A program made the position numbers and the translations under genes. 33,419 bases of DNA, taken from the IMG/VR virus record IMGVR_UViG_3300033145_003170, positions 1 through 33,419 of that record. One strand, written 5' to 3'. Source of the DNA: a virus. Shown piece after piece: positions 8,781 to 33,349 of this stretch. Each line of letters starts with the position of its first letter. Positions within the stretch are counted from its first letter, which is position 1. The notes under the pieces were generated by a model, which saw nothing but the letters and a program-made list of their open reading frames with translations, was not told where the DNA came from and searched no databases.

Positions 8781-8793
8781 GGATATCTCCCTC

Positions 8794-17021: not shown

Positions 17022-19466
17022 ATGGCCTTGAAAAAATCCCAACTCTACAGTTCCCTCTGGCAAAGCTGCGACGAACTGCGCGGCGGCATGGACGCCTCCC
17101 AGTACAAGGACTACGTCTTGACGCTGTTGTTCATGAAGTACGTCTCGGACAAGTTCGCCGGCTCGCCTGACGCGTTGATCGAGGTGCCAAAGGGCGGCAG
17201 TTTTGCAGACATGGCCGCCCTCAAAGGCGACAAGGAAATCGGTGACAAGATCAACAAGATCATCGGGCGCTTGGCGGAGGCCAACGATCTGAAAGGTGTC
17301 ATCGACCAGGCGGATTTCAACGACGAGGGTAAGTTGGGATCGGGCAAGGAGATGCAGGACCGGCTTTCCAAGCTGGTGGCCATCTTCGACAGTCTTGATT
17401 TTCGCGCCAATCGAGCCGAGGGCGACGACCTGCTGGGTGATGCCTACGAGTACTTGATGCGCCACTTCGCCACCGAGAGCGGCAAGAGCAAGGGGCAGTT
17501 CTATACCCCGGCCGAAGTGTCACGCATCCTGGCCCGGGTGGTCGGAATCGGCCCTGATACCCGGCAGGACCAGACCATCTACGATCCAACCTGTGGCTCT
17601 GGATCGCTCCTGCTCAAGGCCGCGGACGAGGCGCCGCGTGGCATTTCCATATATGGCCAGGAAATGGATGTGGCCACGTGGGCCCTGGCGCGGATGAACA
17701 TGATCCTGCACGGCCATGCCACGGCCGAGCTGTGGCGCGGTAACACTCTTTCAACCCCCCATTTCAAGAACAAGGACGGCAGTCTCAAGACCTTCGATTT
17801 CGCCGTGGCCAATCCGCCTTTTTCCACCAAGGCCTGGTCCAACGGGCTCGACCCGACCAACGATGAGTTCGGGCGTTTCGAGTACGGCATTCCCCCAGCG
17901 AAAAACGGTGACTACGCTTTTCTGCTTCACTTGATCAAGTCGCTCAGGAGCACGGGCAAGGGGGCAATCATCCTGCCGCACGGTGTGCTGTTCCGGGGGA
18001 ACAAGGAGGCGGACATTCGCCGCAATCTGGTCCAGCGCGGCCTGATCAAGGGGATCATCGGTTTGCCGGCCAACCTGTTTTATGGCACGGGCATTCCTGC
18101 CTGCATTCTGGTCATCGATAAGGAGAATGCCCACGCCCGCAAGGGGATCTTCATGATCGACGCCAGCAAGGGGTTCGTCAAGGACGGCAACAAGAACCGC
18201 CTGCGGGCCCAGGACATCCACCGCATCGTAGAGGTGTTCAACGGGCAGCTCGAAGAGCCGCGTTATTCGCGTCTTGTGCCGTTGAGTGAGATCGCAAGCT
18301 CAGCCAACGACTACAATCTCAACCTTCCACGGTACATCGATTCCAGCGAGCCCGAGGATCTGCATGACTTGGATGCCCATCTCAACGGCGGCATTCCCAA
18401 CCGCGACATCGATGCCATGAATACCTACTGGGAGGTTTTTCCCTCCCTACGCGAGGCGTTGTTCAAGGACAACGGTCGCGAAGGGTACAGCGAGGCTTGT
18501 GTTGAGGCGCAGCAGGTAAAGGCCACGATCATCGACCATGAGGAATTCCAAACCTACGCGAAGCGGGTTGGTGAAGTGTTTGAGAGTTGGCGCCAGGCCC
18601 ATGAAGAACGGCTTATGGATCTGCAAGAGGGCTGCAACCCCAAGGAATTGATACGTGAACTTTCCCGGGATCTGCTCACACGCTTTGCTGATCTTCCGCT
18701 GCTGGACCGCTACGACATCTATCAGCGGCTGATGGACTACTGGGAAGATGTAATGCAGGACGACCTATACCTCATTGCTGCCGAGGGGTGGGTGGAGGCC
18801 GCTAAACCACGCGGGATCATCGAAGACAAGCAGAAGAAGATCAAGGAGACGCCGGACCTCGTCATCAAACGCAAGAAGTACAAGATGGACCTGGTGCCGC
18901 CGGAGTTGATTGTGGCCCGTTATTTCGCGCCCGAACAGGCGGCCATCGAGGAACTGCAGGCAGCACAGGAAACGGCCACGCGCGCGTTGGAGGAGTTCGT
19001 CGAGGAGCAGACCGGTGAAGAGGGCTTACTGGCCGATGCCGTCAATGACAAGGGCAAGGTCACCAAGGGTGCGGTGAAGGAGCGTATCAAGGCCGTCAAA
19101 GCCGAGCCGGAGTGTGAAGAGGAATGGGAGGCCCTAACGCGATGTCTGGCCCTGATAGAGGCCGAGTCCAAGGCGGGAAAAGCGGTCAAGGATGCACAGG
19201 CAGAGCTGGACGCCAAGGTGCTGGCCCACTACGGCGAGCTTACCGAAGGCGAGATCAAGGTTCTGATAGTCCAAGACAAGTGGCTGGCCAGTATTCAAAC
19301 CGCCGTGGAGGGCGAGGTGCAGCGACTGACGCAGCAGCTTGCCGGTCGGATCAAGGGATTGGCGGAGCGTTACGAAAAACCGTTGCCGGTATTGGAGAGG
19401 GAGGTCGAGGAGTTCAGTGCCAAGGTCGAGGGGCATCTGAAAAAGATGGGACTGGTGTGGGAATGA
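17022..19466 (+). CDS. hsdM: Type I restriction-modification DNA methyltransferase subunit
   Basis: HsdM transfers a methyl group from SAM to adenine N6 within the HsdS-specified target. AAGGA lies seven bases before the ATG. Residues 1-135 form the HsdM N-terminal helical domain (LWQSCDELRGGMDASQYKDY). The FYTPAEVSRILARVV segment and SAM-binding DPTCGSGSLLL follow at about 160-200, and catalytic NPPF is at about 263-266. At 814 residues it is about 300 longer than the classical enzyme. The extension, from about 500, is mostly charged helices (ELQAAQETATRALEEFVEEQ and more). Long forms of this kind exist in other type I systems. Its stop overlaps the hsdS start (ATGA). Confidence 0.95.
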   Translation: MALKKSQLYSSLWQSCDELRGGMDASQYKDYVLTLLFMKYVSDKFAGSPDALIEVPKGGSFADMAALKGDKEIGDKINKIIGRLAEANDLKGVIDQADFNDEGKLGSGKEMQDRLSKLVAIFDSLDFRANRAEGDDLLGDAYEYLMRHFATESGKSKGQFYTPAEVSRILARVVGIGPDTRQDQTIYDPTCGSGSLLLKAADEAPRGISIYGQEMDVATWALARMNMILHGHATAELWRGNTLSTPHFKNKDGSLKTFDFAVANPPFSTKAWSNGLDPTNDEFGRFEYGIPPAKNGDYAFLLHLIKSLRSTGKGAIILPHGVLFRGNKEADIRRNLVQRGLIKGIIGLPANLFYGTGIPACILVIDKENAHARKGIFMIDASKGFVKDGNKNRLRAQDIHRIVEVFNGQLEEPRYSRLVPLSEIASSANDYNLNLPRYIDSSEPEDLHDLDAHLNGGIPNRDIDAMNTYWEVFPSLREALFKDNGREGYSEACVEAQQVKATIIDHEEFQTYAKRVGEVFESWRQAHEERLMDLQEGCNPKELIRELSRDLLTRFADLPLLDRYDIYQRLMDYWEDVMQDDLYLIAAEGWVEAAKPRGIIEDKQKKIKETPDLVIKRKKYKMDLVPPELIVARYFAPEQAAIEELQAAQETATRALEEFVEEQTGEEGLLADAVNDKGKVTKGAVKERIKAVKAEPECEEEWEALTRCLALIEAESKAGKAVKDAQAELDAKVLAHYGELTEGEIKVLIVQDKWLASIQTAVEGEVQRLTQQLAGRIKGLAERYEKPLPVLEREVEEFSAKVEGHLKKMGLVWE

Positions 19467-20731
19467 GCAGTGAAACGATGAAGATTAACGACACTGCGAA
19501 TCAAGATGTGCCGTCAGGATACAAGCGAACTGAGGTGGGGGTGATACCGACCGACTGGGAAGATCGGTCGCTCGCTCAGTTGGGAGGATTCCTTGCTGGG
19601 GCTGGTTTCCCCATCCGGTATCAAGGATCAGTTTCGGGCGATTTTCCATTTTTCAAAGTCTCTGACATGAACACTCCGGGTAATGAGTTGTTCATGTGCC
19701 AGGCGAATCACTACATCACGGAGGAAATCAGGAACAAGCTCAATGCTATCCGAGTACCAAGGGAAAGCATTGTATTTGCTAAGATCGGTGCCGCCATCTT
19801 TCTAGAACGCAAGCGGCTTCTGGCTCAAGATAGTTGCATCGACAACAACATGATGGCGTTCAAGCCAGAAGTTGGTTTGGTATCTCTGCGCTACATGTAT
19901 TACGTCTTGCTCCACCAGAGTTTTGGCGAACTTGTTGCGACAACAGCACTCCCATCCTTGTCCAGTCGTCAACTCGGAGTAATTAGGGTTGCGGTCCCAC
20001 CCCCCTCTGAACAACACGCCATCGCCGAAGCCCTCTCGGATGTGGACGCTCTTCTTAAATCCCTTGATGCCCTGATAACCAAGAAAAAGGCAATCAAACT
20101 GGCGGCCCTGCAGCAACTCCTTACTGGGAAGACAAGGTTGCCAGGATTCAGTGGGGAGTGGGAGAGGAAGAGGTTGGGAGAGATTGCTGAAATCGTCATG
20201 GGTCAGTCGCCAAGCTCAGCATTCTACAACTCGCGCGGCGTAGGTTTACCATTGATTCAGGGCAATGCGGACGTCGAAGGACGGAAAACAATCAAGCGAT
20301 TTTACACTTCCCAGGTCACGAAGCGTGGGCGCAAAGGGGATGTGTTGATGTCTGTTAGAGCGCCTGTTGGTGAGATATCAAGGGCGACATTTGATTTATG
20401 TCTAGGCCGCGGTGTCTGCGCTTTACGGTTTCCCAATGACTTTCTCTTTCATTATTTGATCTATCTTGAGCCGTCATGGTCGAGGCACTCCAAAGGCTCT
20501 ACCTTTGATTCGGTGAATTCAGCAGACGTACGAAGTGTGGAAATTGAAATGCCATCTAGTTCGACCGAACAATTGGCCGTCGCCACTGTCCTCTCCAACA
20601 TGGACACCGAAATTACCGCCCTCGAAGCCCGCCGCGAAAAAACCCGAGCAATCAAAGAAGGCATGATGCAACAGCTTCTCACCGGTCGAGTGCGCTTGAT
20701 TGCGCCCGAACAAAGGGAGACCACCGGATGA
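19463..20731 (+). CDS. hsdS: Type I restriction-modification specificity subunit
   Basis: HsdS has 422 residues and starts at the ATGA overlap with hsdM. It shows the duplicated layout of the family. TRD1 begins at YKRTEVGVIPTDWEDRSLAQ (about 20-180). The first spacer helix is at about 180-230 (EQHAIAEALSDVDALLKSLD, then LLTGKTRLPGF). TRD2 begins WERKRLGEIAEIVMGQSPSS (about 230-365). The second spacer helix is at 365-413 (EQLAVATVLSNMDTEITALE, then LLTGRVRL). The two TRDs read half-sites of a bipartite target that cannot be deduced by eye. No truncation or inverted repeats for phase variation were seen. Confidence 0.93.
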   Translation: MSSETMKINDTANQDVPSGYKRTEVGVIPTDWEDRSLAQLGGFLAGAGFPIRYQGSVSGDFPFFKVSDMNTPGNELFMCQANHYITEEIRNKLNAIRVPRESIVFAKIGAAIFLERKRLLAQDSCIDNNMMAFKPEVGLVSLRYMYYVLLHQSFGELVATTALPSLSSRQLGVIRVAVPPPSEQHAIAEALSDVDALLKSLDALITKKKAIKLAALQQLLTGKTRLPGFSGEWERKRLGEIAEIVMGQSPSSAFYNSRGVGLPLIQGNADVEGRKTIKRFYTSQVTKRGRKGDVLMSVRAPVGEISRATFDLCLGRGVCALRFPNDFLFHYLIYLEPSWSRHSKGSTFDSVNSADVRSVEIEMPSSSTEQLAVATVLSNMDTEITALEARREKTRAIKEGMMQQLLTGRVRLIAPEQRETTG

Positions 20732-22677
20732 AGATTTCGACGATTCTTGACCATATCGATAGCGGCCACATGGCCTTGCCCGAGTTCCAGCGCGGATATG
20801 TTTGGAACAGGGATCAAGTGCGGGGTCTGTTCGATTCCCTATATCGCCGCCATCCGGTCGGCGGGCTGTTGGTATGGGTTACGGAATCAAAGACGGCCGA
20901 TCACCGAGGAGACGGGCAGTTAGCTGCGGGAATCGTGAAGCTCCTCCTTGATGGCCAGCAACGTATGACATCGCTCTATGGGGTTGTGCGCGGAAAGCCG
21001 CCGAAGTTTTTCGATGGGAATCCGAAGGCGTTTACCGGCCTGCGTTTTCATCTTGAGCGTGAAACCTTCGCATTTTACCAGCCGGTGAAAATGAAGGATG
21101 ATCCACTCTGGATCGATGTGACGGAGTTGATGAGTCACGGCAATGCTGGACACGAGGCCCTAGTCGAGAAGCTGGCCGAAGATCCAGCGATCGGAACAAA
21201 GGCGGTCAAGTACTCCAGTCGCATATCCCGTATCCTGGGAATCCTCGAAATTGATCTCCACACTGAAGAGGTCACGGGAAGTGAAAAGACATTGGATGTG
21301 GTGGTGGACATCTTCAACAAAGTCAACAGCGGCGGTACGAAACTCTCCAAGGGCGATTTAGCACTCGCAAAGATTTGCGCTGATTGGCCAGACGCGCGTG
21401 ATGCGATGAAGGCCAAACTCAAGGACTGGGCCCAGGCTGATTACAACTTTAACCTGGACTGGCTATTGCGCTCCATCAACACGGTCTTGACTGGTGAGGC
21501 AAAATTTCAATTCCTGCATGACCGGAATGCCGACGAGATCCAGGGCGCACTCGATCGAGCTGGCAAGCATATCGACACTTGTCTGAACATGATCAGTGGG
21601 CGGCTTGGTCTGGATCACGACCAGGTTTTCTTCGGCCGCTTCGGTGTGCCGGTGATGGTCCGCTATCTGGATCAGCACAACGGCCCTTTGAATGAGAAGG
21701 AGCGGGATAAGTTATTGTTCTGGTTCGTTCAGGCCGGTATGTGGGGGCGATTCTCCGGGTCGACTGAATCCTTTATTGATAAGGACCTAGAGGCGCTGGA
21801 AGGTGCAGACGGCAGTCTGGATAAATTGCTGGAACAGCTTCGCCTTTGGCATGGGGGATTGAGAGTAGAGCCGGGGCACTTCACAGGATGGAGCGTAGGG
21901 GCGCGTTTTTATCCGGTTCTTTACCTGCTGACCCGCATGGGAGAATCTCGAGACTGGGGGACGGGGCTGCCTCTCAAGGCGAATCTTCTCGGCAAGATGA
22001 GCAAGCTCGAAGTGCATCATGTTTTTCCCAAAGCGCAGCTCTACAAACACGGATACAAGCGCCCGGAGGTCAATGCACTTGCCAATTTCTGCTTCCTGAC
22101 CAAGGACACGAATATCAATATCAGCGACCGCTTGCCGGAAATCTATTTCCCCGAGATTGAGCAAAACCACCCGGGGGTTCTTGCGTCGCAGTGGATTCCC
22201 ATGGATGAGACCCTGTGGAAGATCGAAAGTTTTCCTGACTTTCTCGAAGCCCGCAAGGTGCTTCTCGCTGAAGAGTTGAATAGTCGCATGGGGGAATTGT
22301 TGCACGGCGATACAAGTTGGCTTGAGGGGGGGCGTCCGGCTTCTCCGGTGGCGGCAAAGGTTCTTGGTGGTATCACAAGTGAAGCCGAGGAGGAGGCTCT
22401 CTTGTCTCTGAACCAATGGATCTCTGACAAGGGCCTAAATCCTGGGGAACTTTCATATGATTTCGCCGATCCGGAAACAGGGGAACAAAGAGCTGTGTTT
22501 GACTTGGCTTGGCCAACCGGTATCCAGGCAGAACTCAGCCAGCCGGTGGTGGTTCTTCTCAATGAGACTAGCGAAACCATAGCCTTGGCCAGCCAGGCGG
22601 GATTCCGGTGCTTTACGGCTGTGAAGGAATTCAAAAAGTACGTGAAAAATGAGATTTTGGGGGAGGGCGTTGAATGA
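20728..22677 (+). CDS. DUF262-HNH protein embedded in the type I RM operon (649 aa)
   Basis: N-terminal DUF262: ALPEFQRGYVWNRDQVRGLF (16-35) and the nucleotide-site motif DGQQR (75-79). A HNH-like motif follows at about 427 (KLEVHHVFPKAQL), then NALANFCFLTKDTNINISDR. This two-domain layout is shared with GmrSD-type and SspE-type modification-dependent nucleases, where DUF262 binds or hydrolyses nucleotides and the HNH domain cuts DNA. The C-terminal 150 residues are not assigned. The gene overlaps both hsdS and hsdR by ATGA, so it is co-translated with the RM enzyme. DUF262 genes have been reported among R-linked ORFs of type I loci (rlo genes); their role there is poorly known. Function inferred. 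Confidence 0.85.
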   Translation: MKISTILDHIDSGHMALPEFQRGYVWNRDQVRGLFDSLYRRHPVGGLLVWVTESKTADHRGDGQLAAGIVKLLLDGQQRMTSLYGVVRGKPPKFFDGNPKAFTGLRFHLERETFAFYQPVKMKDDPLWIDVTELMSHGNAGHEALVEKLAEDPAIGTKAVKYSSRISRILGILEIDLHTEEVTGSEKTLDVVVDIFNKVNSGGTKLSKGDLALAKICADWPDARDAMKAKLKDWAQADYNFNLDWLLRSINTVLTGEAKFQFLHDRNADEIQGALDRAGKHIDTCLNMISGRLGLDHDQVFFGRFGVPVMVRYLDQHNGPLNEKERDKLLFWFVQAGMWGRFSGSTESFIDKDLEALEGADGSLDKLLEQLRLWHGGLRVEPGHFTGWSVGARFYPVLYLLTRMGESRDWGTGLPLKANLLGKMSKLEVHHVFPKAQLYKHGYKRPEVNALANFCFLTKDTNINISDRLPEIYFPEIEQNHPGVLASQWIPMDETLWKIESFPDFLEARKVLLAEELNSRMGELLHGDTSWLEGGRPASPVAAKVLGGITSEAEEEALLSLNQWISDKGLNPGELSYDFADPETGEQRAVFDLAWPTGIQAELSQPVVVLLNETSETIALASQAGFRCFTAVKEFKKYVKNEILGEGVE

Positions 22678-25600
22678 GCACCGTTGGAGAACGCGAAATT
22701 CGTACACAAAAACGTGTGATATCGTTTTTTGTTGACACTCTCGGCTACGATTATCTCGGCCACTGGAAAGATCGCGGGGGTAACAGCAACATCGAGGTTG
22801 ACCTGCTTACGGCTTGGCTCAACAACGAGGGTCACGGCAACAAGATCATAACCAAGGTGCTGCACGAATTGGACAAGGCGGCGTCCGTAGGTGGCAACAA
22901 GACCCTCTACGATGCCAACCGGGCCTTCTACAGCCTGCTGCGCTACGGCGTCAAAATTAAACCAGGAGTGGGCGCACAGAATATCACCGCCTGGTTGATC
23001 GACTGGAAAAATCCGCAAAACAACAATTTCGCCATCGCCGAGGAAGTGACAGTTACCGGGGAAAACACTAAGCGCCCCGATATCGTGCTCTATGTCAATG
23101 GGCTGGCCCTGGGAGTGCTGGAACTGAAGCGCTCGACCGTGTCGGTGGCCGAAGGCATCCGCCAGAACCTGGACAGCCAGAAGAAGGAATTCATCCAGTC
23201 CTTCTTTGCCACGATCCAGCTCGTGATGGCGGGCAACGAGACCGAAGGCCTGCGCTATGGCGTGATCGAGACGCCGGAAAAGTATTGGCTACGTTGGAAG
23301 GAGACCGACGCTCACCCCGCAGCCGGCGACAACCCGCTGCTGCAGGAACTGGGCCAGCTATGTGGCAGGGAACGCCTGCTTGAAATCGTGCACGATTTCA
23401 TCGTATTTGATGCGGGCGTAAAGAAAACCTGCCGTCACAACCAGTATTTCGGTGTGCAGGCGGCCCGGGGACGGGTCGAGCGTCGCGAAGGCGGCATCCT
23501 CTGGCACACCCAAGGCAGCGGCAAAAGCTTGATCATGGTCTGGCTGGCCAAATGGATCCGCGAGCATGTCCGTGATTCCCGGGTGCTGATCATCACCGAT
23601 CGCACCGAACTGGACGATCAGATTGAAAAGGTTTTCAAGGGGGTCGATGAGGGGATCTACCGCACCAAGAGCGGAGCGGACCTGGTGCACGTGCTCGATG
23701 CCAGCGAGGAGTGGCTGATCTGCTCGCTGATCCACAAGTTCGGCTCCTCGGAAGAGGGAGATCTCGACGCCTTCCTTGAAGATATCCGCAGTCACCTGCC
23801 CAAGGGGTTCCGGGCCAAGGGAGAGGTATTTGTCTTCGTGGATGAGTGCCACCGCACCCAGTCCGGCAAGCTGCACGAGGCCATGAAGGCCCTCTTGCCG
23901 GAGGCCATGCTGATCGGCTTCACCGGTACGCCGCTGCTCAAGTCGGATAAGCGCCGCAGTATCGAGACCTTCGGACCATACATCCACACCTACAAATACG
24001 ACGAAGCAGTGGGCGATGGAGTTGTACTTGATTTGCGGTACGAGGCCCGCGATATCGATCAGAGCATCACCTCCCAGGACAAGATCGATCAGTGGTTCGA
24101 CCTGAAAACCCAGGGTCTGACGGATATGGCCAAGGCCCAGCTCAAACAGCGCTGGGGCACGATGAAGAAAGTCCTGTCCGCCAAAGGGCGCCTGGAGAAG
24201 ATTGTTGCGGACATCCTGATGGACATGGAGACCCGTGATCGCCTCAAGAGCGGGCACGGCAACGCCATGCTCGTTTCCGGCAGCATCTATTCGGCCTGCC
24301 TGTTTTTCGAGATGTTTCAGAAGACCGATCTGGCCGGAAAATGCGCCATCGTCACTTCCTATGAACCCTCCCCCGCGGACATCAAAGGGGAAGAAACCGG
24401 TGAAGGACTGACCGAAAAACTCCGGCAGTACGAAATCTACCGCAAGATGCTGGCGGACCATTTCGGCGAGCCTGAAGACACGGCCATGCACAAGGTCGAG
24501 CAATTCGAGCAGGAGGTGAAAAAACGTTTCATCGAAGAGCCTGGGCAGATGAAGCTGCTGATCGTGGTCGACAAGTTGCTGACCGGTTTCGACGCGCCCC
24601 CCGCGACTTATCTCTACATCGACAAGAAGATGCAGGATCACGGCTTGTTCCAGGCCATCTGCAGGATCAACCGTCTGGATGGAGACGACAAGGAGTACGG
24701 TTACGTTATCGACTACAAGGACCTTTTCGGCTCCTTGGAAGATGCCATCAAAGACTACACGGGTGAGGCTTTTTCCGGTTTCGATGCGGCCGATGTTGAG
24801 GGCCTGCTCAAGGATCGGTTGGAGCAGGGTCGGCAACGCTTGGAAGATATGCGCGAGGCGATCAAGGCGCTTTGTGAGCCAGTGGAACCACCAAAGGACA
24901 CGGCGGCATATCTTCGTTACTTCTGTGCCGTTGAGAGTGGCAACGCAGAGCAGCTCAAGGAAAACGAACCCAAGCGGGTCGCACTCTACAAACTGGCTGG
25001 TTCGTTCCTGCGGGCCTATGCGAACCTGGCAAACGAGATGCGCGAGGCCGGATATTCCGATGCAGAGATCCAGGAGTTCAAGGCCGAGGTCGGACACTAC
25101 GAGAAGGTTCGCGAAGAGGTAAAGCTTGCCAGCGGTGATTACATCGACATGAAGATGTACGAACCGGCAATGCGCCATCTCCTGGATACCTACATTCGGG
25201 CTGAAGAAAGTGAAACGCTCTCGTCTTTCGACGATATGACTTTGGTTCAGCTGATTGTCGAAAAAGGAGAAGATGCCGTCGGTTCCCTGCCGGAGGGAAT
25301 CCGCAGAAACCGAGAGGCCGCTGCCGAGACCATAGAGAACAACGTGCGGCGGCTGATCATTGACGAGATGGCTGTCAATCCCAGGTACTACGAGAAAATG
25401 TCGGAATTGCTTGACGCCCTGATTGCTCAACGGAAACAAGAGGCTCTGGATTACAAGGAGTACCTGAGAAAGATAGTCGAACTTACCAGGCAGGCAGCAA
25501 ACCCCGGTTCGGATCGATCTGCTTATCCGAATCCTCCCATCAGCAGTGCGCCGCTGAGGGCTCTCTACGACAATTTGGAGGGGCTCCAAGTGGACCCGAC

Positions 25601-25829
25601 AACAAACGCCACCCCTTCCTATCAGTATGGTGGCTCATCGCAATTTGAGGCCCGGACAGGAATGGCCCTGGCGTTGGACGCCGCTATTCGGCAAGTAAAG
25701 AAGGATAATTGGCGGGGAAACAGGTTCAAAGAACGAGAGGTGCGTAACGCGATCAAATCCCAACTGGGAGAGAACGAAGATCTTGTGAACAAGATTTTCG
25801 AACTTGTGAAGAACCAGCATGAATACTAA
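22674..25829 (+). CDS. hsdR: Type I restriction endonuclease motor subunit
   Basis: HsdR has 1051 residues. The nuclease domain shows the PD-(D/E)xK residues D136 (RPDIVLY), E150 and K152 (GVLELKR). The SF2 translocase follows with Walker A HTQGSGKS at about 278-285, a motif Ia-type VLIITDRTELDDQIEK, the DECH box at about 389 (VFVDECHRTQSGK), GFTGTPLL, and motif VI near QAICRINRLDGDDKEYGYVI. The C-terminus is helical and binds the methylase core. All key residues are present, so the enzyme should be active. It cuts unmodified DNA after translocation. ATGA overlap with the DUF262 gene. A long open frame on the opposite strand is a coding shadow. Confidence 0.95.
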   Translation: MSTVGEREIRTQKRVISFFVDTLGYDYLGHWKDRGGNSNIEVDLLTAWLNNEGHGNKIITKVLHELDKAASVGGNKTLYDANRAFYSLLRYGVKIKPGVGAQNITAWLIDWKNPQNNNFAIAEEVTVTGENTKRPDIVLYVNGLALGVLELKRSTVSVAEGIRQNLDSQKKEFIQSFFATIQLVMAGNETEGLRYGVIETPEKYWLRWKETDAHPAAGDNPLLQELGQLCGRERLLEIVHDFIVFDAGVKKTCRHNQYFGVQAARGRVERREGGILWHTQGSGKSLIMVWLAKWIREHVRDSRVLIITDRTELDDQIEKVFKGVDEGIYRTKSGADLVHVLDASEEWLICSLIHKFGSSEEGDLDAFLEDIRSHLPKGFRAKGEVFVFVDECHRTQSGKLHEAMKALLPEAMLIGFTGTPLLKSDKRRSIETFGPYIHTYKYDEAVGDGVVLDLRYEARDIDQSITSQDKIDQWFDLKTQGLTDMAKAQLKQRWGTMKKVLSAKGRLEKIVADILMDMETRDRLKSGHGNAMLVSGSIYSACLFFEMFQKTDLAGKCAIVTSYEPSPADIKGEETGEGLTEKLRQYEIYRKMLADHFGEPEDTAMHKVEQFEQEVKKRFIEEPGQMKLLIVVDKLLTGFDAPPATYLYIDKKMQDHGLFQAICRINRLDGDDKEYGYVIDYKDLFGSLEDAIKDYTGEAFSGFDAADVEGLLKDRLEQGRQRLEDMREAIKALCEPVEPPKDTAAYLRYFCAVESGNAEQLKENEPKRVALYKLAGSFLRAYANLANEMREAGYSDAEIQEFKAEVGHYEKVREEVKLASGDYIDMKMYEPAMRHLLDTYIRAEESETLSSFDDMTLVQLIVEKGEDAVGSLPEGIRRNREAAAETIENNVRRLIIDEMAVNPRYYEKMSELLDALIAQRKQEALDYKEYLRKIVELTRQAANPGSDRSAYPNPPISSAPLRALYDNLEGLQVDPTTNATPSYQYGGSSQFEARTGMALALDAAIRQVKKDNWRGNRFKEREVRNAIKSQLGENEDLVNKIFELVKNQHEY

Positions 25830-26547
25830 ACAGAAGACCATGGAAGTTGGAGGAATTCCCGTGGAGGTTGTCCACAAGGACATCAAGAACCTCCATGTGG
25901 GTGTTTACCCTCCGTCTGGTCGAGTTCGTGTTGCGGCCCCTTTGCGCCTGGACGACGAGGCCGTGCGTCTGGCTGTCGTGTCGCGTTTGGGGTGGATCAG
26001 ACGCCAGCAAGCTGCGTTTGTAGAACAGGTGCGTCAGTCCGAGCGGGAAATTGTGACAGGGGAAAGCCACTTCTTCGCTGGGCATCGATATCGTATGGAT
26101 GTGATAGAGTCCAATGAATCCCCAAAAGTGAAATTGCTGAATAATACGACTATGGAGCTTCGTGTTCGTCCGGGGACCTCCAGAGATGGGCGTGATGCCG
26201 TCCTTCAGAAATGGTATCGGGCGAAACTCAAGGAACAACTGCCGAAGTTGATCGCCAAGTGGGAACCGGTGGTTGGGGTTTCTGTCGTGGATGCCCGGAT
26301 TAAGAGGATGAAGACCCGATGGGGTAGTTGTAACGCTGAGGCCGGTCGAATTTGGTTGAATCTGGAGTTGGTCAAGAAGCCGGCGGCCTGCTTGGAATAT
26401 ATCCTTGTCCACGAGATGGTCCATTTTCTCGAAAGACATCATAACGATCGTTTCCGAGAACTGCTCGAGGCAGCCATGCCGACTTGGCGATTGCACCGTG
26501 AAGAATTGAACCGAGCGCCGTTGGCGCATGAGGCTTGGGATTATTGA
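25819..26547 (+). CDS. YgjP-like zinc metallopeptidase (242 aa)
   Basis: The C-terminal half holds MKTRWGSCNAEAGRIWLNLE and the zinc motif HEMVH (198-202) followed by RHHNDRF, the pattern of the YgjP/DUF45 family. The N-terminal half is a beta-rich domain (IKNLHVGVYPPSGRVRVAAP). All metal ligands are present. The start overlaps hsdR by 11 nt, and there is only a weak ribosome binding site, so translation is probably coupled to hsdR. Such peptidases often follow hsdR in type I loci. Regulated proteolysis of HsdR, as ClpXP does in enteric bacteria, is an attractive but unproven role. A Met seven codons later is an alternative start. Confidence 0.88.
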   Translation: MNTKQKTMEVGGIPVEVVHKDIKNLHVGVYPPSGRVRVAAPLRLDDEAVRLAVVSRLGWIRRQQAAFVEQVRQSEREIVTGESHFFAGHRYRMDVIESNESPKVKLLNNTTMELRVRPGTSRDGRDAVLQKWYRAKLKEQLPKLIAKWEPVVGVSVVDARIKRMKTRWGSCNAEAGRIWLNLELVKKPAACLEYILVHEMVHFLERHHNDRFRELLEAAMPTWRLHREELNRAPLAHEAWDY

Positions 26548-26606
26548 TGCTCATGAGTGGTTTCCGTTGTGTGATATCTTCATGCCAAGACAGTTAGGAG
26601 CTGCTT

Positions 26607-27308
26607 TTGAAAATTGATGTTTATTGCGACGAAAGCCATCCAGACCTCTTTGCTTCTGGGGGCTCAGAGTTTTCTTTTATGGTCCTCGGTGGACTTTGGT
26701 GTGCCCGTGGATTTCGAGACCAATTCAAGTCGGAAATCCACCATCTGAGGGATAAACACCAATATGGGGGAGAATTCAAATGGCAAAAAGTCACGCCAGC
26801 CAAGGCGGGGTTTTATCTAGATTTGATCGATTGGTTTTTCGACAAAGGGGACGATCTAAGATTCCGATGCATCGTAATTGACAAGAATAAGGTAGACCTT
26901 GCCAAATACCACGACGATGACCAGGAACTGGGGTTTTATAAATTCTACTATCAGCTCTTGAAACACTGGATAAAGCCGAGTAATAGCTATCAGGTCTTTC
27001 TGGATTTCAAAACAAATAGACAGCGAGATCGACTCGACGTCCTTCACCGTTGTTTGGGACATGCATGTCCCAATTCCGAAGTAATCGGGGTTCAAGCAAT
27101 TCGATCACGCGAATCGGTCCTAATTCAGGTTGCCGATTTTCTTACGGGTGCTGCTTCTGCCAGCCTCAACAGGTCTATTTTATCTAGCGACAGTAAGCGA
27201 AAGGTAATTTCTGAAATTGAAAGTCGGTTGGGCGGTGGAATTCGGTCAACTGTAAAGTGGGAAAAGAAGTTCAATGTGTTTGCGATTCAACTGAACGGAG
27301 GCTGGTGA
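26607..27308 (+). CDS. DUF3800 protein, RNase H-like fold (233 aa)
   Basis: Starts at TTG 26607 with TAGGAG six bases upstream. No ATG in this frame precedes the domain. DUF3800 hallmarks are the N-terminal DVYCDESHPD with Asp-Glu-Ser, a middle strand VFLDFKTNRQRDRLD and a C-terminal ESVLIQVADFLTGAASASLN with Asp. The acidic residues are placed as in an RNase H-like nuclease active site. DUF3800 genes are frequent in defence islands and mobile elements, and some act in phage defence, but no common activity is established. The next gene begins directly after the stop. The pair is about 60 bp downstream of the RM operon and slightly more AT-rich. Confidence 0.85.
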   Translation: MKIDVYCDESHPDLFASGGSEFSFMVLGGLWCARGFRDQFKSEIHHLRDKHQYGGEFKWQKVTPAKAGFYLDLIDWFFDKGDDLRFRCIVIDKNKVDLAKYHDDDQELGFYKFYYQLLKHWIKPSNSYQVFLDFKTNRQRDRLDVLHRCLGHACPNSEVIGVQAIRSRESVLIQVADFLTGAASASLNRSILSSDSKRKVISEIESRLGGGIRSTVKWEKKFNVFAIQLNGGW

Positions 27309-27746
27309 ATGGGGCGCCGGCCAGCTCTGGTCGAATATAATTCGGTGCAGGAATATCGAAACTATTTCGAAGAGGTCTATTGCCAAGGCCCGATCGAAAC
27401 ACATGACGGGATCTTGGTACGGTTTCGTAAACAACAATTCGACCATGCCTTCTTTGAGTCGATTGCCGGGGCTAAAGACAGCGTTTTTTCAAATCCACGC
27501 GCTCAGCGCGTCGATTGGATCAAGTGGACCTTGGAAAACCCCAATGCCGAATTGTATGTTGGTTGGGACAACAAACGGAAACGGACGACTCCCAACCGGC
27601 GTGTGGCAATTGTGAACGACGACTATGTTGTCATAATCCGGTTGGGCCGCGGTGATCGAGCTGAGTTTGTAACGGCTTTTGTTGCGGACCACGGGACGAT
27701 TGGGAAGATTAGGCTAAATGGTCGATGGGCAAAAAAATACCGCTGA
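27309..27746 (+). CDS. BECR-fold-like nuclease candidate (145 aa)
   Basis: The ATG directly follows the TGA of the DUF3800 gene, with GGAGG seven bases upstream, so the two are coupled. The protein contains DGILVRFRKQQFDHAFFES, RAQRVDWIKWTLENPNAELY and VAIVNDDYVVIIRLGRGDRA, ending in Arg/Lys-rich NGRWAKKYR. This pattern, a helix with His, then a Trp-Ile-Lys helix and a final hairpin, resembles phage-type BECR (Barnase-EndoU-colicin-RelE) nuclease domains. I recall similar proteins encoded beside DUF3800 genes. Candidate residues are H53 and the later Arg/Lys pairs, but no active site can be named with confidence. The last codons form one arm of a hairpin (see terminator). Confidence 0.6.
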   Translation: MGRRPALVEYNSVQEYRNYFEEVYCQGPIETHDGILVRFRKQQFDHAFFESIAGAKDSVFSNPRAQRVDWIKWTLENPNAELYVGWDNKRKRTTPNRRVAIVNDDYVVIIRLGRGDRAEFVTAFVADHGTIGKIRLNGRWAKKYR

Positions 27747-27815: not shown

Positions 27816-28049
27816 CTACCAGAAGTTATCGACAGCGTCAACGAGTTCCTTTAGCTTTATTTGGTGCTGTGGCTTCATTTCGATGATGTAGACGCTGTAA
27901 CTTGTTTTTGTAAAGCAGGTTATCATCGTTTGGAAAATATCGGTCCAGACCAGTTTGTTTGTGGGCTGAATATCGTCTTCTGGAATCAGGCACGCATTTT
28001 CTTGCAATATGAATCGATGCACACTATTTTGACCGAACAAGCTTCCCAA
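27816..28049 (-). CDS. Possible small protein downstream of the recombinase (77 aa)
   Basis: An open frame overlaps the last 64 bases of the recombinase gene in the -1 frame and ends 47 bp before the terminator. The start would be TTG 28049, with no clear ribosome binding site, so coupling or nothing are the options. The product looks protein-like (VYIIEMKPQHQIKLKELVDA) and is acidic and AT-rich in codons. Family not recognised. Without it, the stretch 27770-27985 holds no gene. Confidence 0.3.
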   Translation of the reverse strand: MGSLFGQNSVHRFILQENACLIPEDDIQPTNKLVWTDIFQTMITCFTKTSYSVYIIEMKPQHQIKLKELVDAVDNFW

Positions 28050-29581
28050 GAGTTCGATAAGGGTATCGATCGGGGAGCCAAATGTTCCGGTCTACGAATA
28101 GAGCTCTGATTCGGTAACCCGTACCAGATCTCGATCGTACGCCGATCATGAACAAGGACCTTCTTCACGAGGCGGCGAAGAAGGTCCTTTTTCTGTGGGT
28201 TGGTCCCCTCCGTCATCACGTTTTCCAGCTCATCCAACATCCCTGCGAGCATGTTCTTGTCGATGGCTTCGATATCCAGCTGCTTCCGCCTTGTATCCAG
28301 GTCGTGTTTTTCAGCCTGAAGTTCGGCGATCCGGGCGTTCAGGTCGTCGACCTTCCGGGTGCAGACCTCTGGCTTGAGGGTCTCGGCTTCGAAGGCTGCG
28401 AAGTAACGGTCGATCGTGGCCCGAGCCTTGGTGATCTTGGCCTCGACGTTGGCGATCTCTTTCTCCAGCGATGGCTTCTCGGCACAAAGACGAACGTTGG
28501 CCTCCGCCCAGATGCGGGCCAGGAAGGACTCGTCCTGAAGTATGGCTTTGATGTCCTTCAGGATTGCACTTTCAAGCAGGTCGGCACGCACGTAGTCCTG
28601 GTCGCAGTCCGCTTTGTTCATCCAGCGTTTGTTGCAGATGTAGTACGGGAACTTCTTGTCCTTCTTTTGGGTACTGACGCCAATCATGTGGGATTTGCAA
28701 CGGGCGCACTTGATGATACCGGTGAGCAGTCTTTCCTCTCCGTTGTGGAAACGACGTCCATTCAGATCGCCAACTCGAGTCTTCATGATCGCTTGGGCTT
28801 TATTGAAGATGGTATCAGAGACGAGAGCCTGGTGATTACCCTCGTAGACCGCATCGTTCCAGCGGAGCTTTCCGATATAGAGCGGGCTTTTGATGATGTG
28901 CAGGATGACCCGCTTGTCCCATTTCTTGCCGCTACGTTTTCGGTGGCCCGCTAGGTTCAACTTTCGGCAAATCGTGTGCGTGCCTTCATGGCCGAGTGAG
29001 TACATCTGGAACATTTTCCGGACGATGACTGCTTCTTCCTCGTTGATGATCAATCCCTGTTCGGGGTCGAGTTGGTATCCGAACGGCACGACCCCTCCGA
29101 CCCAGGCCCCGCTCTTTGCCTTCTTTTCCATTCCGACCTTGGTACGCTCAACAATGGTTGCGTGCTCAAACTCGGCAAAGACCCCCAGCATCTGGAGCAT
29201 CATCTTGCCGGCTGCGTTGGCGGTGTCGAACGGCTCGGTGATGGATTTTAGGACGACGTGGTTCTTGGTGAGTTCGTCCACCATGAGGGCGAGTTCCCGA
29301 ACCTTGCGTGACAAGCGGTCGACGCGGAAAACCAAGAGCGTATCGAAGGCCTGGGATTCGGCGTCGAAGAGCATCTCCTCGAGACCGGGGCGGTTCATGT
29401 GAGTGCCGCTCTCGGTGTCGCGGTAGATTTTGTGGAGGCGCCAGTCGTCGCCCCACTGGGATTTGCAGAAGGCTTCAAGCCGCTCGGACTGGGCACCGAG
29501 GGAGTATTTCTGGTGGTCCTCGTCGGTGGAGATCCGGATGTAGAAGGACACACGGTGTGGGGTCTGATGACGTTCTTGCAA
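27986..29581 (-). CDS. Large serine recombinase (phage integrase type, 531 aa)
   Basis: Start TTG 29581 is chosen because AGGAGG lies six bases before it. An ATG seven codons earlier would place that site inside the gene. Catalytic Ser18 is in FYIRISTDEDHQKYSLGAQ, with conserved Arg in FRVDRLSRKVRE and the E-helix ERTKVGMEKKAKSGAWVGG. The recombinase domain follows (GVVPFGYQLDPEQGLIINEE, TICRKLNLAG), then the zinc ribbon (KCARCKSHMIG ... YICNKRW ... DCDQDY) and a coiled coil at about 370-470. This is the full set for an integrase that joins attP and attB. It is probably the integrase of this element. C-terminal 30 residues (HLAPRSIPLSNS) are unconserved. Confidence 0.92.
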   Translation of the reverse strand: MQERHQTPHRVSFYIRISTDEDHQKYSLGAQSERLEAFCKSQWGDDWRLHKIYRDTESGTHMNRPGLEEMLFDAESQAFDTLLVFRVDRLSRKVRELALMVDELTKNHVVLKSITEPFDTANAAGKMMLQMLGVFAEFEHATIVERTKVGMEKKAKSGAWVGGVVPFGYQLDPEQGLIINEEEAVIVRKMFQMYSLGHEGTHTICRKLNLAGHRKRSGKKWDKRVILHIIKSPLYIGKLRWNDAVYEGNHQALVSDTIFNKAQAIMKTRVGDLNGRRFHNGEERLLTGIIKCARCKSHMIGVSTQKKDKKFPYYICNKRWMNKADCDQDYVRADLLESAILKDIKAILQDESFLARIWAEANVRLCAEKPSLEKEIANVEAKITKARATIDRYFAAFEAETLKPEVCTRKVDDLNARIAELQAEKHDLDTRRKQLDIEAIDKNMLAGMLDELENVMTEGTNPQKKDLLRRLVKKVLVHDRRTIEIWYGLPNQSSIRRPEHLAPRSIPLSNSWEACSVKIVCIDSYCKKMRA

Positions 29582-29684
29582 GTGTAACCTCCTAAAAAAC
29601 ATGCACTTGGGGAGGATTTAGCCCCATTCAGTCCTACCTCTGAACTACCCTCACATCAAGGCAATCCAGATAGTAAAGGGCTGC

Positions 29685-29769: not shown

Positions 29770-30225
29770 TCAGGCCTGGGGCACCAAGAGGGCGTGGGTC
29801 TTGATGAGCTCAACCTTCGGGTCCAGTTCGACGGACCGGCCAATGACCCTGGCATCAAGAACACGGCGGACGCACTGACCGATCTGACGGTGGAGGGTCC
29901 ACCTTAGATCATCGTTCTCTTTCCCTGAAGGGTCGGTGATGGCGGCCTGATAGTCTTTCCGAATGGCCAAGTCATCCCTGATCTGTCGGAAGACGGACAG
30001 GGTAACGTCCTGTGGAAAACTGTCCTTGTTCGGGTATTGGTTCGTCAGCCACTGTGCGATCTGTTTCAGCAATTCCATCCTGGGATTGGCGTCCATTCCT
30101 ATCTCCTTTCGAAGTCCGGCCTCCACGATATCTGCAAACGTGAGACCAAGTGACACGGCTTTCAGCTCGGTGGCTTCCACTACTTGGCGGGGCAATCTGA
30201 CCGACTTGACTACTTGCTCGTCCAT
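29770..30225 (-). CDS. Ribbon-helix-helix DNA-binding protein with C-terminal domain (151 aa)
   Basis: Start ATG 30225 has AGGAGG five bases upstream. The extra in-frame residues further upstream are rejected. Residues 1-45 (DEQVVKSVRLPRQVVEATEL, then LGLTFADIVEAGLRKEI) are a ribbon-helix-helix: a short strand followed by two helices, a dimeric DNA-binding fold as in Arc and CopG. Residues 50-151 are mostly helical (MELLKQIAQWLTNQYPNKDS) and unassigned. The gene is divergent from lexA with promoters facing apart. It may regulate the lexA region or the adjacent recombinase. It could also be an antitoxin, but no toxin gene lies beside it. Confidence 0.75.
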   Translation of the reverse strand: MDEQVVKSVRLPRQVVEATELKAVSLGLTFADIVEAGLRKEIGMDANPRMELLKQIAQWLTNQYPNKDSFPQDVTLSVFRQIRDDLAIRKDYQAAITDPSGKENDDLRWTLHRQIGQCVRRVLDARVIGRSVELDPKVELIKTHALLVPQA

Positions 30226-30248
30226 GATTTCCTCCTGATTGTGACACA

Positions 30249-30277
30249 ACTATAATCAAGCGTATTACACTTGTCAT
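30249..30277 (-). promoter_or_regulatory. Promoter of the ribbon-helix-helix gene
   Basis: On the minus strand ATGACA (30277-30272) and TATAGT (30254-30249) are separated by 17 bp. The -35 overlaps one of two direct copies of TGTCATG (30272-30278 and 30287-30293), 15 bp apart, and lies between the arms TATTAC and GTAATA (30263-30285). Repeats of this size and spacing suit a ribbon-helix-helix regulator, so autoregulation is likely. Confidence 0.5.
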
Positions 30278-30353: not shown

Positions 30354-30382
30354 TTGACACCTAACGATCGTTAGGGGATATT
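30354..30382 (+). promoter_or_regulatory. lexA promoter with palindromic operator between -35 and -10
   Basis: TTGACA (30354-30359) is followed by a 17-bp spacer and GATATT (30377-30382). The spacer is filled by a perfect 16-bp palindrome, CCTAACGATCGTTAGG (30360-30375). This is the position of a LexA box in an autoregulated lexA promoter. The sequence differs from the enterobacterial CTG-N10-CAG box and from the Gram-positive GAAC-N4-GTTC box. Confidence 0.7.
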
Positions 30383-30418
30383 CCACGGGTTTCGGCCCTC
30401 CCAAAGGAGAACCAAAAC

Positions 30419-31045
30419 ATGGCAAAACTTGAATCTAGACTGCCAACGCCCCGGCAGCTGGAGATCCTGGATTGGATAAAGACCTTCATCCACGGTCATG
30501 GCATGCCTCCGACGGTGCGTGAGATCGGGAGCGCCTTCAACATCAAGAGTTCCAGTGTTTTCGACTTGTTGAAGGCGTTGGAACAAAAAGGGCATCTTCG
30601 CCGTGGTGGTCTTGGGGCCCGCTCTCTGGTCCTCGAGGGGCACGGCCATCATCATGAGTGCAGTTGCGAAGAGGTCAGGGTAGTGGGGCGAATCCGTGCC
30701 GGCCACCTCATCGAGGCGATCGAAGATGACTGCGGTACCATCACTGTGAAGCGGGCTCTCCTCCGCGGCTGTGAGGCTTTCGCGCTGCGAGTCGCAGGCA
30801 GCAGTATGATCGAGGCCGGGATTCTTGATGGTGATTTTGTGGTCGTGCGGAAGCAGGAGACTGCCGACGACGGAGATATCGTCGTGGCACTCATAGAGAA
30901 CGAGGCAACGTTGAAGCGCCTGTATAAAGATTCGGACGGAGTGCGGCTTGAGCCCGCTAACCGAGATTGGTCCACTATCGTTGTACGGTCAGGGGAATTC
31001 AGGGTTCAGGGTAAGGTTATAGGCGTACAGAGACTACTAGACTAG
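30419..31045 (+). CDS. lexA: LexA-type repressor with self-cleaving S24 domain
   Basis: AAAGGAGA precedes the ATG. Residues 8-70 are the LexA winged helix (PTPRQLEILDWIKTFIHGHG, PPTVREIGSAFNI, LKALEQKGHLRRG). Residues 85-208 are the peptidase domain with cleavage site Ala94-Gly95 (GRIRAGHLIEAIED), nucleophile Ser129 (AGSSMIEAGILDGD) and general base Lys166 (EATLKRLYK). All catalytic parts are intact, so RecA-stimulated self-cleavage is expected after DNA damage. The linker (EGHGHHHECSCE) is His/Cys-rich. Whether this is the host's main LexA or a copy carried by the element is not known. Two unknown genes follow 26 bp downstream in the same direction. Confidence 0.93.
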   Translation: MAKLESRLPTPRQLEILDWIKTFIHGHGMPPTVREIGSAFNIKSSSVFDLLKALEQKGHLRRGGLGARSLVLEGHGHHHECSCEEVRVVGRIRAGHLIEAIEDDCGTITVKRALLRGCEAFALRVAGSSMIEAGILDGDFVVVRKQETADDGDIVVALIENEATLKRLYKDSDGVRLEPANRDWSTIVVRSGEFRVQGKVIGVQRLLD

Positions 31046-31071
31046 ACACTTCGATAAGTAAGGAGTGATTT

Positions 31072-32250
31072 ATGGCAAGCGAATACGCACAAAAACAGTA
31101 TCTCAGACAAGCAGAGATCGTGTTGCTCAGACAATACTTTGAGGCACGAGGCGAACTCGACAGTCTGAACTGGGAAGACCTATCGGAGGCGGACGTCACC
31201 CCAATACATGAAGCATGGCAGATACTCCCCGAGCTGTCTCTGGCTGAAATCGATGACGACTTCAGAAGTATTTTTGATCTCGCTTCTACGGACGGCACAC
31301 GAACTCTTATCGAGGAAGGCCATTTCCACAAGATCGATTTGAAACCTCATCTCGACGCCCAAGAAGGTTTCATCAACAAGGCATTTTGGGTGTTTTTGAA
31401 TCACAGGAGGGTTTTTGACGTCGCCCACATTCTGGATCGTTCAGACCATTTCAACCGACGATATTGGCGGAAGCGAAAGGGTCTTCCGAAGAAGAAACCT
31501 GATCTGTCACCGGCTGCAATCACCGAGCTGGAACATTCGATTTCCACGTACTATAGAGAAAAGCAAGGGCGCGGCAGGCACTGTCATGTCGACAAGTATC
31601 TTCGAGGCAATCGCTACCATTACTTTTTTGCTTATCCGCAGGACTACACGGACACCTTCGTTGGTTTCGACGGTGATGGAAAATTTGAACGTAAACGTCA
31701 GAATCCGGCTTTCGAGGTGGTATATGTGTATGATCCCGATGACGGTACCCTCGACCTATATGCTCAGGGGGGGAAGGACATTAAGAAAGACTTGCAGGAA
31801 CTGTTTGCGCGGACGGTTTTACATGAGGAACTCGGAGAAGAGGACAGCAATTCGCAGCCTTACGAACTAAACCCACTGAAGAAACGCAGCTTTAAGTTTC
31901 CGACCGACCCAGCCGATCGTGTCATTGAGGTCAGAATCAAGGAGCTGCGCCTGTCTATTGTCGGTAGCGCGCGCAATCGGATCACGTTCGAAGCAACGCC
32001 GACCGGCGCAACAGACGAGATTTACGGATTTATTGAGAAGGCCCTCCACGAAGACCGGCTTCCTATGGCAATGGTAAACGTGAGCTCTGCCGTGATCCAG
32101 GTTCGCTTCGATAACACCGGAGGAAAGGGAAGAGCGACGAAAACTGTGACGTTCCGAATCTCCTATCCCGATTCCTGCAACCTCAAGGACAAACCAGAGC
32201 ACTTGATTGTGAAGAAGTACCTGAAGGTGTGGGGGATTGAACGTGCTTGA
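31072..32250 (+). CDS. Unknown protein A of the lexA operon (392 aa)
   Basis: TAAGGAG lies seven bases before the ATG and 26 bp after lexA, so co-transcription under the LexA operator is likely. I do not recognise a family. The N-terminal 90 residues are acidic and helical. A basic patch follows at about 128-142 (FNRRYWRKRKGLPKKK). Then comes a His/Tyr/Arg-rich segment at 166-192 (GRGRHCHVDKYLRGNRYHYF, then FAYPQDY) leading into strands with Asp-rich turns (FEVVYVYDPDDGTLDLY). The C-terminal 100 residues are strands and helices ending LIVKKYLKVWGI. No signal peptide or membrane helix. Basic patch and strands suggest nucleic acid binding, which is inference. It overlaps the next gene by eight bases. 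Confidence 0.85.
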   Translation: MASEYAQKQYLRQAEIVLLRQYFEARGELDSLNWEDLSEADVTPIHEAWQILPELSLAEIDDDFRSIFDLASTDGTRTLIEEGHFHKIDLKPHLDAQEGFINKAFWVFLNHRRVFDVAHILDRSDHFNRRYWRKRKGLPKKKPDLSPAAITELEHSISTYYREKQGRGRHCHVDKYLRGNRYHYFFAYPQDYTDTFVGFDGDGKFERKRQNPAFEVVYVYDPDDGTLDLYAQGGKDIKKDLQELFARTVLHEELGEEDSNSQPYELNPLKKRSFKFPTDPADRVIEVRIKELRLSIVGSARNRITFEATPTGATDEIYGFIEKALHEDRLPMAMVNVSSAVIQVRFDNTGGKGRATKTVTFRISYPDSCNLKDKPEHLIVKKYLKVWGIERA

Positions 32251-33349
32251 CCCGCTCAAGGTTGTTTGGTTGCGTGCTGATGCGGACGAGGCCAGGATCG
32301 ATGGCGACGAGGCCATAGAATGTGGTATCGGTATCATCGACCTGTTGGTCAACGCCGGCCTGGTCCACCGCGCTGAAAATGCCCGCTGCATTCCATGCGA
32401 TGCCTGCGCTGAGCACCATTTGGAAGAGGTTACGTCTATCGAAAGCCCCCAGGGCGCTCAGGTTCGTTCCTATATCTACTGCCCTGAGCACGGTCGTGTC
32501 TTCGTTCACCCGGAGAGATTGAAACAGTGGGTTGTGGATTTCGAAGGTTTAGCGAAGGCTGCGGCCATAGGGCTGGAATTGGCTGGTGACATCGAAGATA
32601 TCATTGCTGGCAGGCTATGGTATCTCGGCAAGAGAACGATCGGCGGAAGGACGCGCGAGGTTTTTCTGGCTAGAGGTACGACAGCAAAGGACGCGCCTGA
32701 TATCTTTGGCCCATGCGAGCGGCTGAACGCGTCTAGTGCCGCGGTACTCATGGTTCCCGGAGAAATGCCGTCAAAGGATATGTGGACCAACGATTCACTA
32801 TCTGTCATTCCGTTTAAACTCGTCGCAAGAATGGAAGATCGGAGCCTTGTTTTCGATCAGGATCACGTTGAGGGTCTGCTCGCCGGGGGACACCGAAAGG
32901 CTCCTGTGAAAGCCCAGAAATCTTTCCCAACACCAGCAGGAACAACATGGGAAGATGTCAATGTTTGGGTCTCGGACCATGACACTACAATCGAGATCAA
33001 GCGCTTAAGCCGTGTTTTTACCTTCCAAGATGCGGGTTTCGAAGAAAAACGGAAACGAGGTGTGCCAGATGCCAAATGGGCCCTTTTAAAAGTGTTCGCT
33101 ATGCACGGCGGCATTATTCCGTTTGACGGATCAGAATTAGACCATGGTACGCAAACAAATCTTAAGCAATATGTCAGCGTCCTCCGTCAGCGAATAAGAG
33201 CCCTGATCCCCGGCATCGATGGCGACCCGATTCCGTATGTCAAGGACGAGCGATCCTACAAGATGCCTTTCAAGATTACGAGTAGGGAGGGCCTAACCTT
33301 CCCCGTGTCCTACCCAAAAAATCCATCTTGCCCCGGAACCCGCCTCTGA
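32243..33349 (+). CDS. Unknown protein B: Cys/His cluster plus C-terminal winged helix (368 aa)
   Basis: GTG 32243 is favoured because GGGGG lies seven bases upstream; TTG 32237 is the alternative. Residues 49-59 (CIPCDACAEHH) and 80-83 (CPEH) form a Cys/His cluster likely to bind zinc. Residues 95-250 are a mixed domain without known motifs. Residues about 275-350 (DAKWALLKVFAMHGGIIPFD, then LKQYVSVLRQRIRALIPGID and VKDERSYKMPFKI) look like an OmpR/PhoB-type winged helix with its recognition helix and C-terminal hairpin, but without a receiver domain. So it may bind DNA. It overlaps gene A and closes the operon. The gene ends 70 bp before the window edge. Confidence 0.85.
   Translation: MLDPLKVVWLRADADEARIDGDEAIECGIGIIDLLVNAGLVHRAENARCIPCDACAEHHLEEVTSIESPQGAQVRSYIYCPEHGRVFVHPERLKQWVVDFEGLAKAAAIGLELAGDIEDIIAGRLWYLGKRTIGGRTREVFLARGTTAKDAPDIFGPCERLNASSAAVLMVPGEMPSKDMWTNDSLSVIPFKLVARMEDRSLVFDQDHVEGLLAGGHRKAPVKAQKSFPTPAGTTWEDVNVWVSDHDTTIEIKRLSRVFTFQDAGFEEKRKRGVPDAKWALLKVFAMHGGIIPFDGSELDHGTQTNLKQYVSVLRQRIRALIPGIDGDPIPYVKDERSYKMPFKITSREGLTFPVSYPKNPSCPGTRL

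Follow-up and report, generated by a model that had tools for sequence, protein, structure and literature searches.

A phage-borne lexA-A-B operon as a candidate Rex-like, repressor-coupled switch module

Background

In bacteriophage lambda, RexA is encoded beside the repressor gene cI, stabilises the lytic state and does not need RexB to modulate the lambda switch; its structure has an RdgC fold with non-specific DNA binding and also resembles Iml3 and Chl4 (PMC11077077). Here, we describe an operon at the right end of an IMG/VR virus record of 33,419 bases (IMGVR_UViG_3300033145_003170; this whole stretch is called the window), in which a phage-borne lexA gene is followed by two genes, A and B. 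Based on its promoter, its gene order and the predicted fold of A, we lean towards considering lexA-A-B a Rex-like, repressor-coupled switch module that heads the SOS-inducible early operon of a temperate phage, with an A-B complex that would bias the lysis-lysogeny switch.

The locus resembles lambda cI-rexA-rexB in that A lies directly behind the repressor gene and is co-oriented with it (after a 26-bp gap in the window; as XRE/M78-A-B in other loci), and in that the partners form a two-gene unit. Additionally, A is predicted to adopt the RdgC-type fold reported for RexA. In contrast to RexA, A carries an extra helical N-terminus, and no sequence similarity is detectable between them; RexB is a membrane protein, whereas B is predicted to be soluble, contains a Cys cluster and likely has a DNA-binding C-terminus; and the repressor beside A-B is LexA, or an XRE protein with an ImmA-like protein, instead of cI. 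In its working, lexA-A-B is most like the lambda repressor-rex operon; by sequence and by type of partner, it stands outside the Rex system.

The lexA-A-B operon and its operator

The lexA gene (30419..31045, plus strand) encodes a full-length LexA repressor (TIGR00498, 188.7 bits against a cut-off of 110.95; PF01726 and PF00717) that retains the Ala94-Gly95 cleavage site and the Ser129/Lys166 dyad. Its promoter (30354..30382, plus strand) consists of TTGACA (30354-30359) and GATATT (30377-30382), and the 16-bp palindrome CCTAACGATCGTTAGG (30360-30375), a putative LexA operator, fills the 17-base spacer between these -35 and -10 elements. In a promoter scan of the last 3.8 kb of the window, this site, which we also call the CTAACGATCGTTAG promoter after its box, was among the two best of three promoter-like sites. 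Gene A (31072..32250, plus strand; 392 aa) starts 26 bp downstream of the end of lexA and overlaps by 8 bases gene B (32243..33349, plus strand), which encodes 368 aa from a GTG start at 32243; the longest B frame, from TTG at 32237, has 370 aa. It is confirmed that the three genes belong to one operon headed by the palindrome-bearing promoter. An earlier, sequence-only reading of this DNA had described an intact LexA with an autoregulatory palindrome and had given the same gap, gene sizes and overlap; LexA is indeed intact, every coordinate was correct, and the position of the palindrome in the promoter spacer, conserved in relatives, is consistent with autoregulation.

The operator core, TAACGNNCGTTA, was searched for in the window and in the fetched loci (designated by L numbers), 950,716 bases in all. 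Five copies were found, in the window, L006, L007, L008 and L011 and nowhere else, and all five lie in the -35/-10 spacer upstream of a phage lexA. Base composition predicts approximately 0.02 chance occurrences in the window and approximately 0.6 over all loci. The box is single in the 33.4-kb record, where the next best 16-mer has four mismatches; given this, the expectation of 0.02 and the same promoter position in four relatives, the box at the lexA promoter is, judged from these counts, more than chance. A one-mismatch operator in the same promoter setting occurs in L044, where lexA lies near a B-type gene, and L010 has an imperfect copy, as judged by eye. In L006, two extra genes stand between the box and lexA, which suggests that the genes behind the box travel as one operon. 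The lexA-promoter site of L008 is the only promoter-like site in 8 kb, and a run of genes on one strand with short gaps follows it: lexA, A, B, a 227-aa gene, a sigma-like gene, a DUF3799 exonuclease-like gene, an AAA_24 ATPase gene and DUF669. The predicted LexA operator, CTAACGNNCGTTAG, can be used to find such prophages.

Cellular LexA operons are likewise headed by an autoregulated lexA. Unlike them, the window operon lacks imuAB-dnaE2 and sulA-like genes, an absence that the sequence-only reading had correctly pointed out, and the operator occurs at one phage promoter only. That lexA-A-B might be a cellular SOS operon miscalled as viral is very improbable. LexA does fit the cellular equivalog model; however, the record contains capsid, portal and tape measure genes, an integrase adjoins the operon, early phage genes lie downstream in relatives, and the box is missing from the sole LexA promoter met in the control loci (one locus, from another genome). 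The phage genes in the main refute the cellular origin.

Conservation of the A-B pair

Of the genomes searched with A, matches came from 24 of the 392 in Planctomycetota, 17 of the 289 in Verrucomicrobiota and 1 of the 198 in Acidimicrobiia, the last being a metagenome-assembled genome. The N-terminal domain of B matched in 16 of the 392 Planctomycetota genomes, and at 15 of the 17 new places found in this way an A-family frame lies directly upstream of B; the two places that lack it belong to a single genome, and at one of these lexA takes that position. By our own count, the frame after A matches the B profile for nearly every intact A gene; in most of the remaining cases, a B-like frame could be seen by eye or a single frame holds both A and B. 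The A and B frames usually overlap, in many loci by exactly the 8 bases of the window. L099 and L102 each have a single reading frame that joins an A-like sequence to a B-like or helix-turn-helix (HTH) sequence; these fusions are supportive without being proof, since L099 lacks the start of A and the B part of L102 was recognised by eye only. A distant A-B pair was found by tblastn of plasmids with A, on a gammaproteobacterial plasmid of Candidatus Tenderia electrophaga. The search of named phages with A (tblastn) gave no match, scans of viral contigs found no further A-B past the close relatives, and our searches of open-access literature found no description of the pair. On the basis of the matches, A-B is widespread as a module of the early region of prophages. 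For the sequence-only reading, conservation of the pair in defence islands or prophages, with or without lexA, was to count as support, and the neighbours of the pairs, tabulated across genomes, bear this out for prophages: A and B are conserved together, and neither matches a family of known function.

Two loci contain one partner by itself or nearly so. In L009, an 81.8-kb viral contig, an A-family gene with a shortened N-terminus (7917-8822) lies among replication/repair-type genes with only a short B-like frame behind it, a setting in which A may also work outside the repressor context. In L044 (7545-9628), lexA with its near-identical operator is followed by a 174-aa gene and then by the B-type gene, and no A is detectable.

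Prophage context and the repressor slot

The marker table of the A-B loci gave a repeated order: a serine recombinase with or without DUF2924, LexA or an XRE gene with Peptidase_M78 (ImmA/IrrE type), A, B, a sigma-like gene, DUF3799, AAA_24, DUF669, a RusA-like gene, a helicase and Prim-Pol; the sigma-like and RusA-like labels were assigned by us from sequence. The controls were 20 stretches taken from the same genomes or from related ones: 18 contained no marker at all, one had LexA and one a DUF2924/recombinase pair.

In many loci, the slot ahead of A-B is filled by an XRE gene with a Peptidase_M78 gene, so that LexA, the only repressor the sequence-only reading had seen, is often replaced. 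This resembles the ImmR/ImmA modules of integrative elements, in contrast to the window, which carries LexA instead; to our knowledge, A-B is not part of ImmR/ImmA systems. When four repressor classes, of which the class 'other' is mixed, were placed on the A tree, at least seven changes were needed. L047, L053 and L057 showed no distinct repressor gene between recombinase and A, so that A-B itself could carry the switch. In some Verrucomicrobiota loci, such as L120 (6514-7506) and L123 (4822-5880), a regulator that by eye looks WYL-type stands upstream of A, replacing LexA or XRE/ImmA. A family of about 230 aa without a Pfam or PADLOC match lies directly behind B in lexA-bearing relatives (L001, 6496-7212; L003, 5153-5836).

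A variable stretch beside the module, placed between the recombinase and the repressor, often carries defence-type genes, including Type I restriction, an Hma-type helicase, NsnA-like and PDC-S11 genes. A-B itself was considered as a defence gene and rejected as the principal explanation because A-B is constant while the defence genes vary. Of the SOS-triggered defence, induction or repair module envisaged by the sequence-only reading, the SOS-type control is well supported and induction is the role that fits best; the restriction genes beside A-B are variable cargo. A related explanation is that the lysogen makes A-B as a superinfection-exclusion or abortive-infection pair, comparable to lambda RexAB and the rex-like genes of actinobacteriophages, which are reported to protect lysogens (PMC11077077; PMC6426606). 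The RexA-type fold, the position beside the repressor and the defence genes in the neighbouring cargo would agree with such a pair; we nevertheless regard it as unlikely, given that A-B belongs to the constant early region outside the variable cargo, that B lacks a membrane segment (its most hydrophobic 19 residues reach a hydropathy of 1.5, those of RexB 2.4) and that PADLOC found no match for A and B of the window or for the B relatives.

Domains and variants of B

B comprises an N-terminal Cys cluster, a middle domain and a C-terminal winged-helix-like module. In 22 relatives, C52, C55 and C80 (alignment numbering) and W96 are invariant, and the middle domain is common to most of them, but the C-terminus is exchanged. 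The winged-helix-like module is present in the window, L003, L011, L012, L048 and L079; L041 and L097 have HTH-like C-terminal segments, with sub-threshold Pfam hits concentrated at one place, and L047 and L089 have single weak sub-threshold HTH hits; further types of C-terminus also occur. The cysteines of the Cys/His cluster named in the sequence-only reading were recovered, whereas its OmpR-like winged helix is suggested by pattern and is one of several C-termini in the family. If the target sites of a regulator diverge from one phage to another, its DNA-binding end would be expected to be exchanged on a conserved front, and B is likely a DNA-binding protein with interchangeable C-terminal modules.

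The closest B relatives of the window are approximately 490 aa long with a second repeat of the C-terminal module, and the window has the one-module form. Truncation of B by the contig break is not favoured, because B has its own stop and a one-module B also occurs in L048.

Predicted fold of A

Searches of Pfam, NCBIfam, PADLOC and PDB sequences with A and B gave nothing usable, including no RdgC Pfam match and no PDB sequence match for A. Gene A does match phrog_37634 (E=1.4e-28), a family of unassigned function. A first model built from 9 sequences was weak (predicted local distance difference test, pLDDT, 67.6; best Foldseek E 0.03). The AlphaFold2 model from 38 sequences, with the plasmid protein row left out of the alignment, reached a pLDDT of 91.8 and a predicted template modelling score of 0.83, and consists of a helical N-terminus (1-125) and a core (about 126-392).

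The best 16 VIA rows for this model are all RdgC, CENP-N/Chl4, CENP-L or Iml3, and unrelated folds begin at Z 6.9. E. coli RdgC matched at Z 9.4 over 212 residues (root-mean-square deviation, rmsd, 6.3 Å), its whole chain aligning with A 123-392; the RdgC structures 2OWL and 2OWY gave Z 9.4 and 9.0 over 212-213 residues (rmsd approximately 6 Å). CENP-N/Chl4 matched at Z 7.8-9.0, CENP-L at Z 8.0-8.1 and Iml3 at Z 7.0. Foldseek placed Chl4/CENP-N chains at ranks 1-5 (probability 0.82-0.99). Among viral models (BFVD), A matched a phage exonuclease with probability 1.00 and a phage protein labelled recombination-associated with 0.99. Based on the model, we confidently assign to A the RdgC/CENP-N/CENP-L/Iml3 fold; given the moderate Z and high rmsd, the fold family is well supported but the exact relative is not.

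RdgC being the nearest structure to A, over its whole chain, we weighed whether A-B is a recombination or replication accessory pair, in which A would coat or encircle DNA, restrain RecA and protect phage exonuclease/annealing recombination, B would be its DNA-targeting partner, and the repressor position would merely reflect early expression. The genes that follow A-B (DUF3799 PDDEXK, AAA_24 ATPase, DUF669, RusA-like and helicase) and the setting of the L009 A gene are in keeping with this possibility, as is the lowering by RdgC of RecA strand exchange and RecA-dependent LexA cleavage (Drees 2006, as relayed in PMC11077077). RdgC genes also occur in phages and plasmids. However, A differs from RdgC in lacking sequence-profile similarity and in having the N-terminal domain of approximately 125 aa, the regular partner B and the repressor position; the exchangeable C-termini of B and the tight repressor link suit regulation better, and some loci have no adjacent recombination genes. 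An accessory pair is therefore a tentative alternative, which we think may hold but do not favour.

The match to RdgC is confined to the core, whereas the CENP-N/Chl4 alignment begins at A residue 57-59 and so takes in some of the helical N-terminus. Since both parts match CENP-N/Chl4, A might be a prokaryotic, prophage-borne relative of CENP-N/CENP-L; A-B would then be a mobile switch complex that clamps DNA, and a candidate for the prokaryotic origin of the centromere fold. We regard this as doubtful. CENP-N/Chl4 and CENP-L/Iml3 are eukaryotic centromere proteins of the inner kinetochore, no sequence similarity to them was found, and their function is unrelated as far as known.

Proposed mechanism

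In the switch module that we favour, LexA dimers at the single operator between -35 and -10 would close the promoter during lysogeny, and DNA damage would open it by RecA-activated self-cleavage of LexA, as inferred from LexA chemistry. A, with its RdgC/RexA-type fold, would probably bind DNA as a dimer without sequence specificity, and B, likely a DNA-binding protein, would form a single complex with A; this complex would bias the choice between lysis and lysogeny as well as the onset of early gene expression. The near-universal pairing, the cases of A and B in a single frame and the fold suggest both the complex and its role. By analogy with what is reported for RdgC, A could also act on RecA and brake LexA cleavage. 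The repressor slot is exchangeable (LexA, XRE with ImmA-like peptidase, perhaps others), so that A-B stays constant while the sensor of damage or stress varies.

The switch role is strengthened by the confinement of the operator to phage lexA promoters, the prophage synteny with mostly empty controls, the fold of A, for which BFVD gave a phage match of RdgC type, and the RexA precedent. Several points weigh against it. The winged helix of B has no statistical support (no Pfam hit and no PDB sequence hit), its pattern resembling the Trans_reg_C type. hhalign detected no profile link of A with RdgC (P 0.092) or with RexA (P 0.096, with a four-sequence RexA alignment); RexA is not among the structural matches listed for A, which says nothing either way. 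The A-B loci L012 and L111 have no recognisable repressor or prophage genes nearby. Finally, because the window ends 70 bp past B, the continuation of the operon and read-through into early genes are visible in relatives only.

These results suggest that a RexA/RdgC-fold protein beside a prophage repressor is no oddity of lambda: prophages of Planctomycetota and Verrucomicrobiota repeatedly have, at the equivalent position, a pair unrelated to it in sequence, in which the partner is a putative DNA-binding protein and beside which the sensor of damage or stress can be exchanged. The use of Rex-type proteins to a prophage thereby becomes testable in a second, independent lineage, and phrog_37634, hitherto without function, gains a predicted fold.

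Neighbouring genes in the window

Besides the operon, the record encodes HK97-type capsid/protease, portal, tape measure, lysin and holin genes. A large serine integrase (27986..29602, minus strand; PF00239, PF07508, PF13408; phrog_95) is divergent from the lexA operon and approximately 64% identical to its counterparts in L006, L007, L008 and L011.

Defence-type cargo adjoins the integrase (17022..27746, plus strand) and, according to PADLOC, includes Type I restriction-modification genes, an HEC-05-like protein and a PDC-M04A/B pair. The HEC-05-like protein (20728-22677), with weaker NsnA and PD-T4-2 matches, lies between hsdS and hsdR. A YgjP-like metallopeptidase gene (25819-26547) comes immediately after hsdR, which it overlaps by a few bases. 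The candidate pair PDC-M04 (26607-27746), a DUF3800 gene and a PDC-M04B gene, has the restriction genes on one side and the integrase on the other.

Between the integrase and the lexA promoter, a minus-strand gene of 159 aa (29770-30249) has no significant family match; its promoter-like site, at 30277-30249, points away from lexA.
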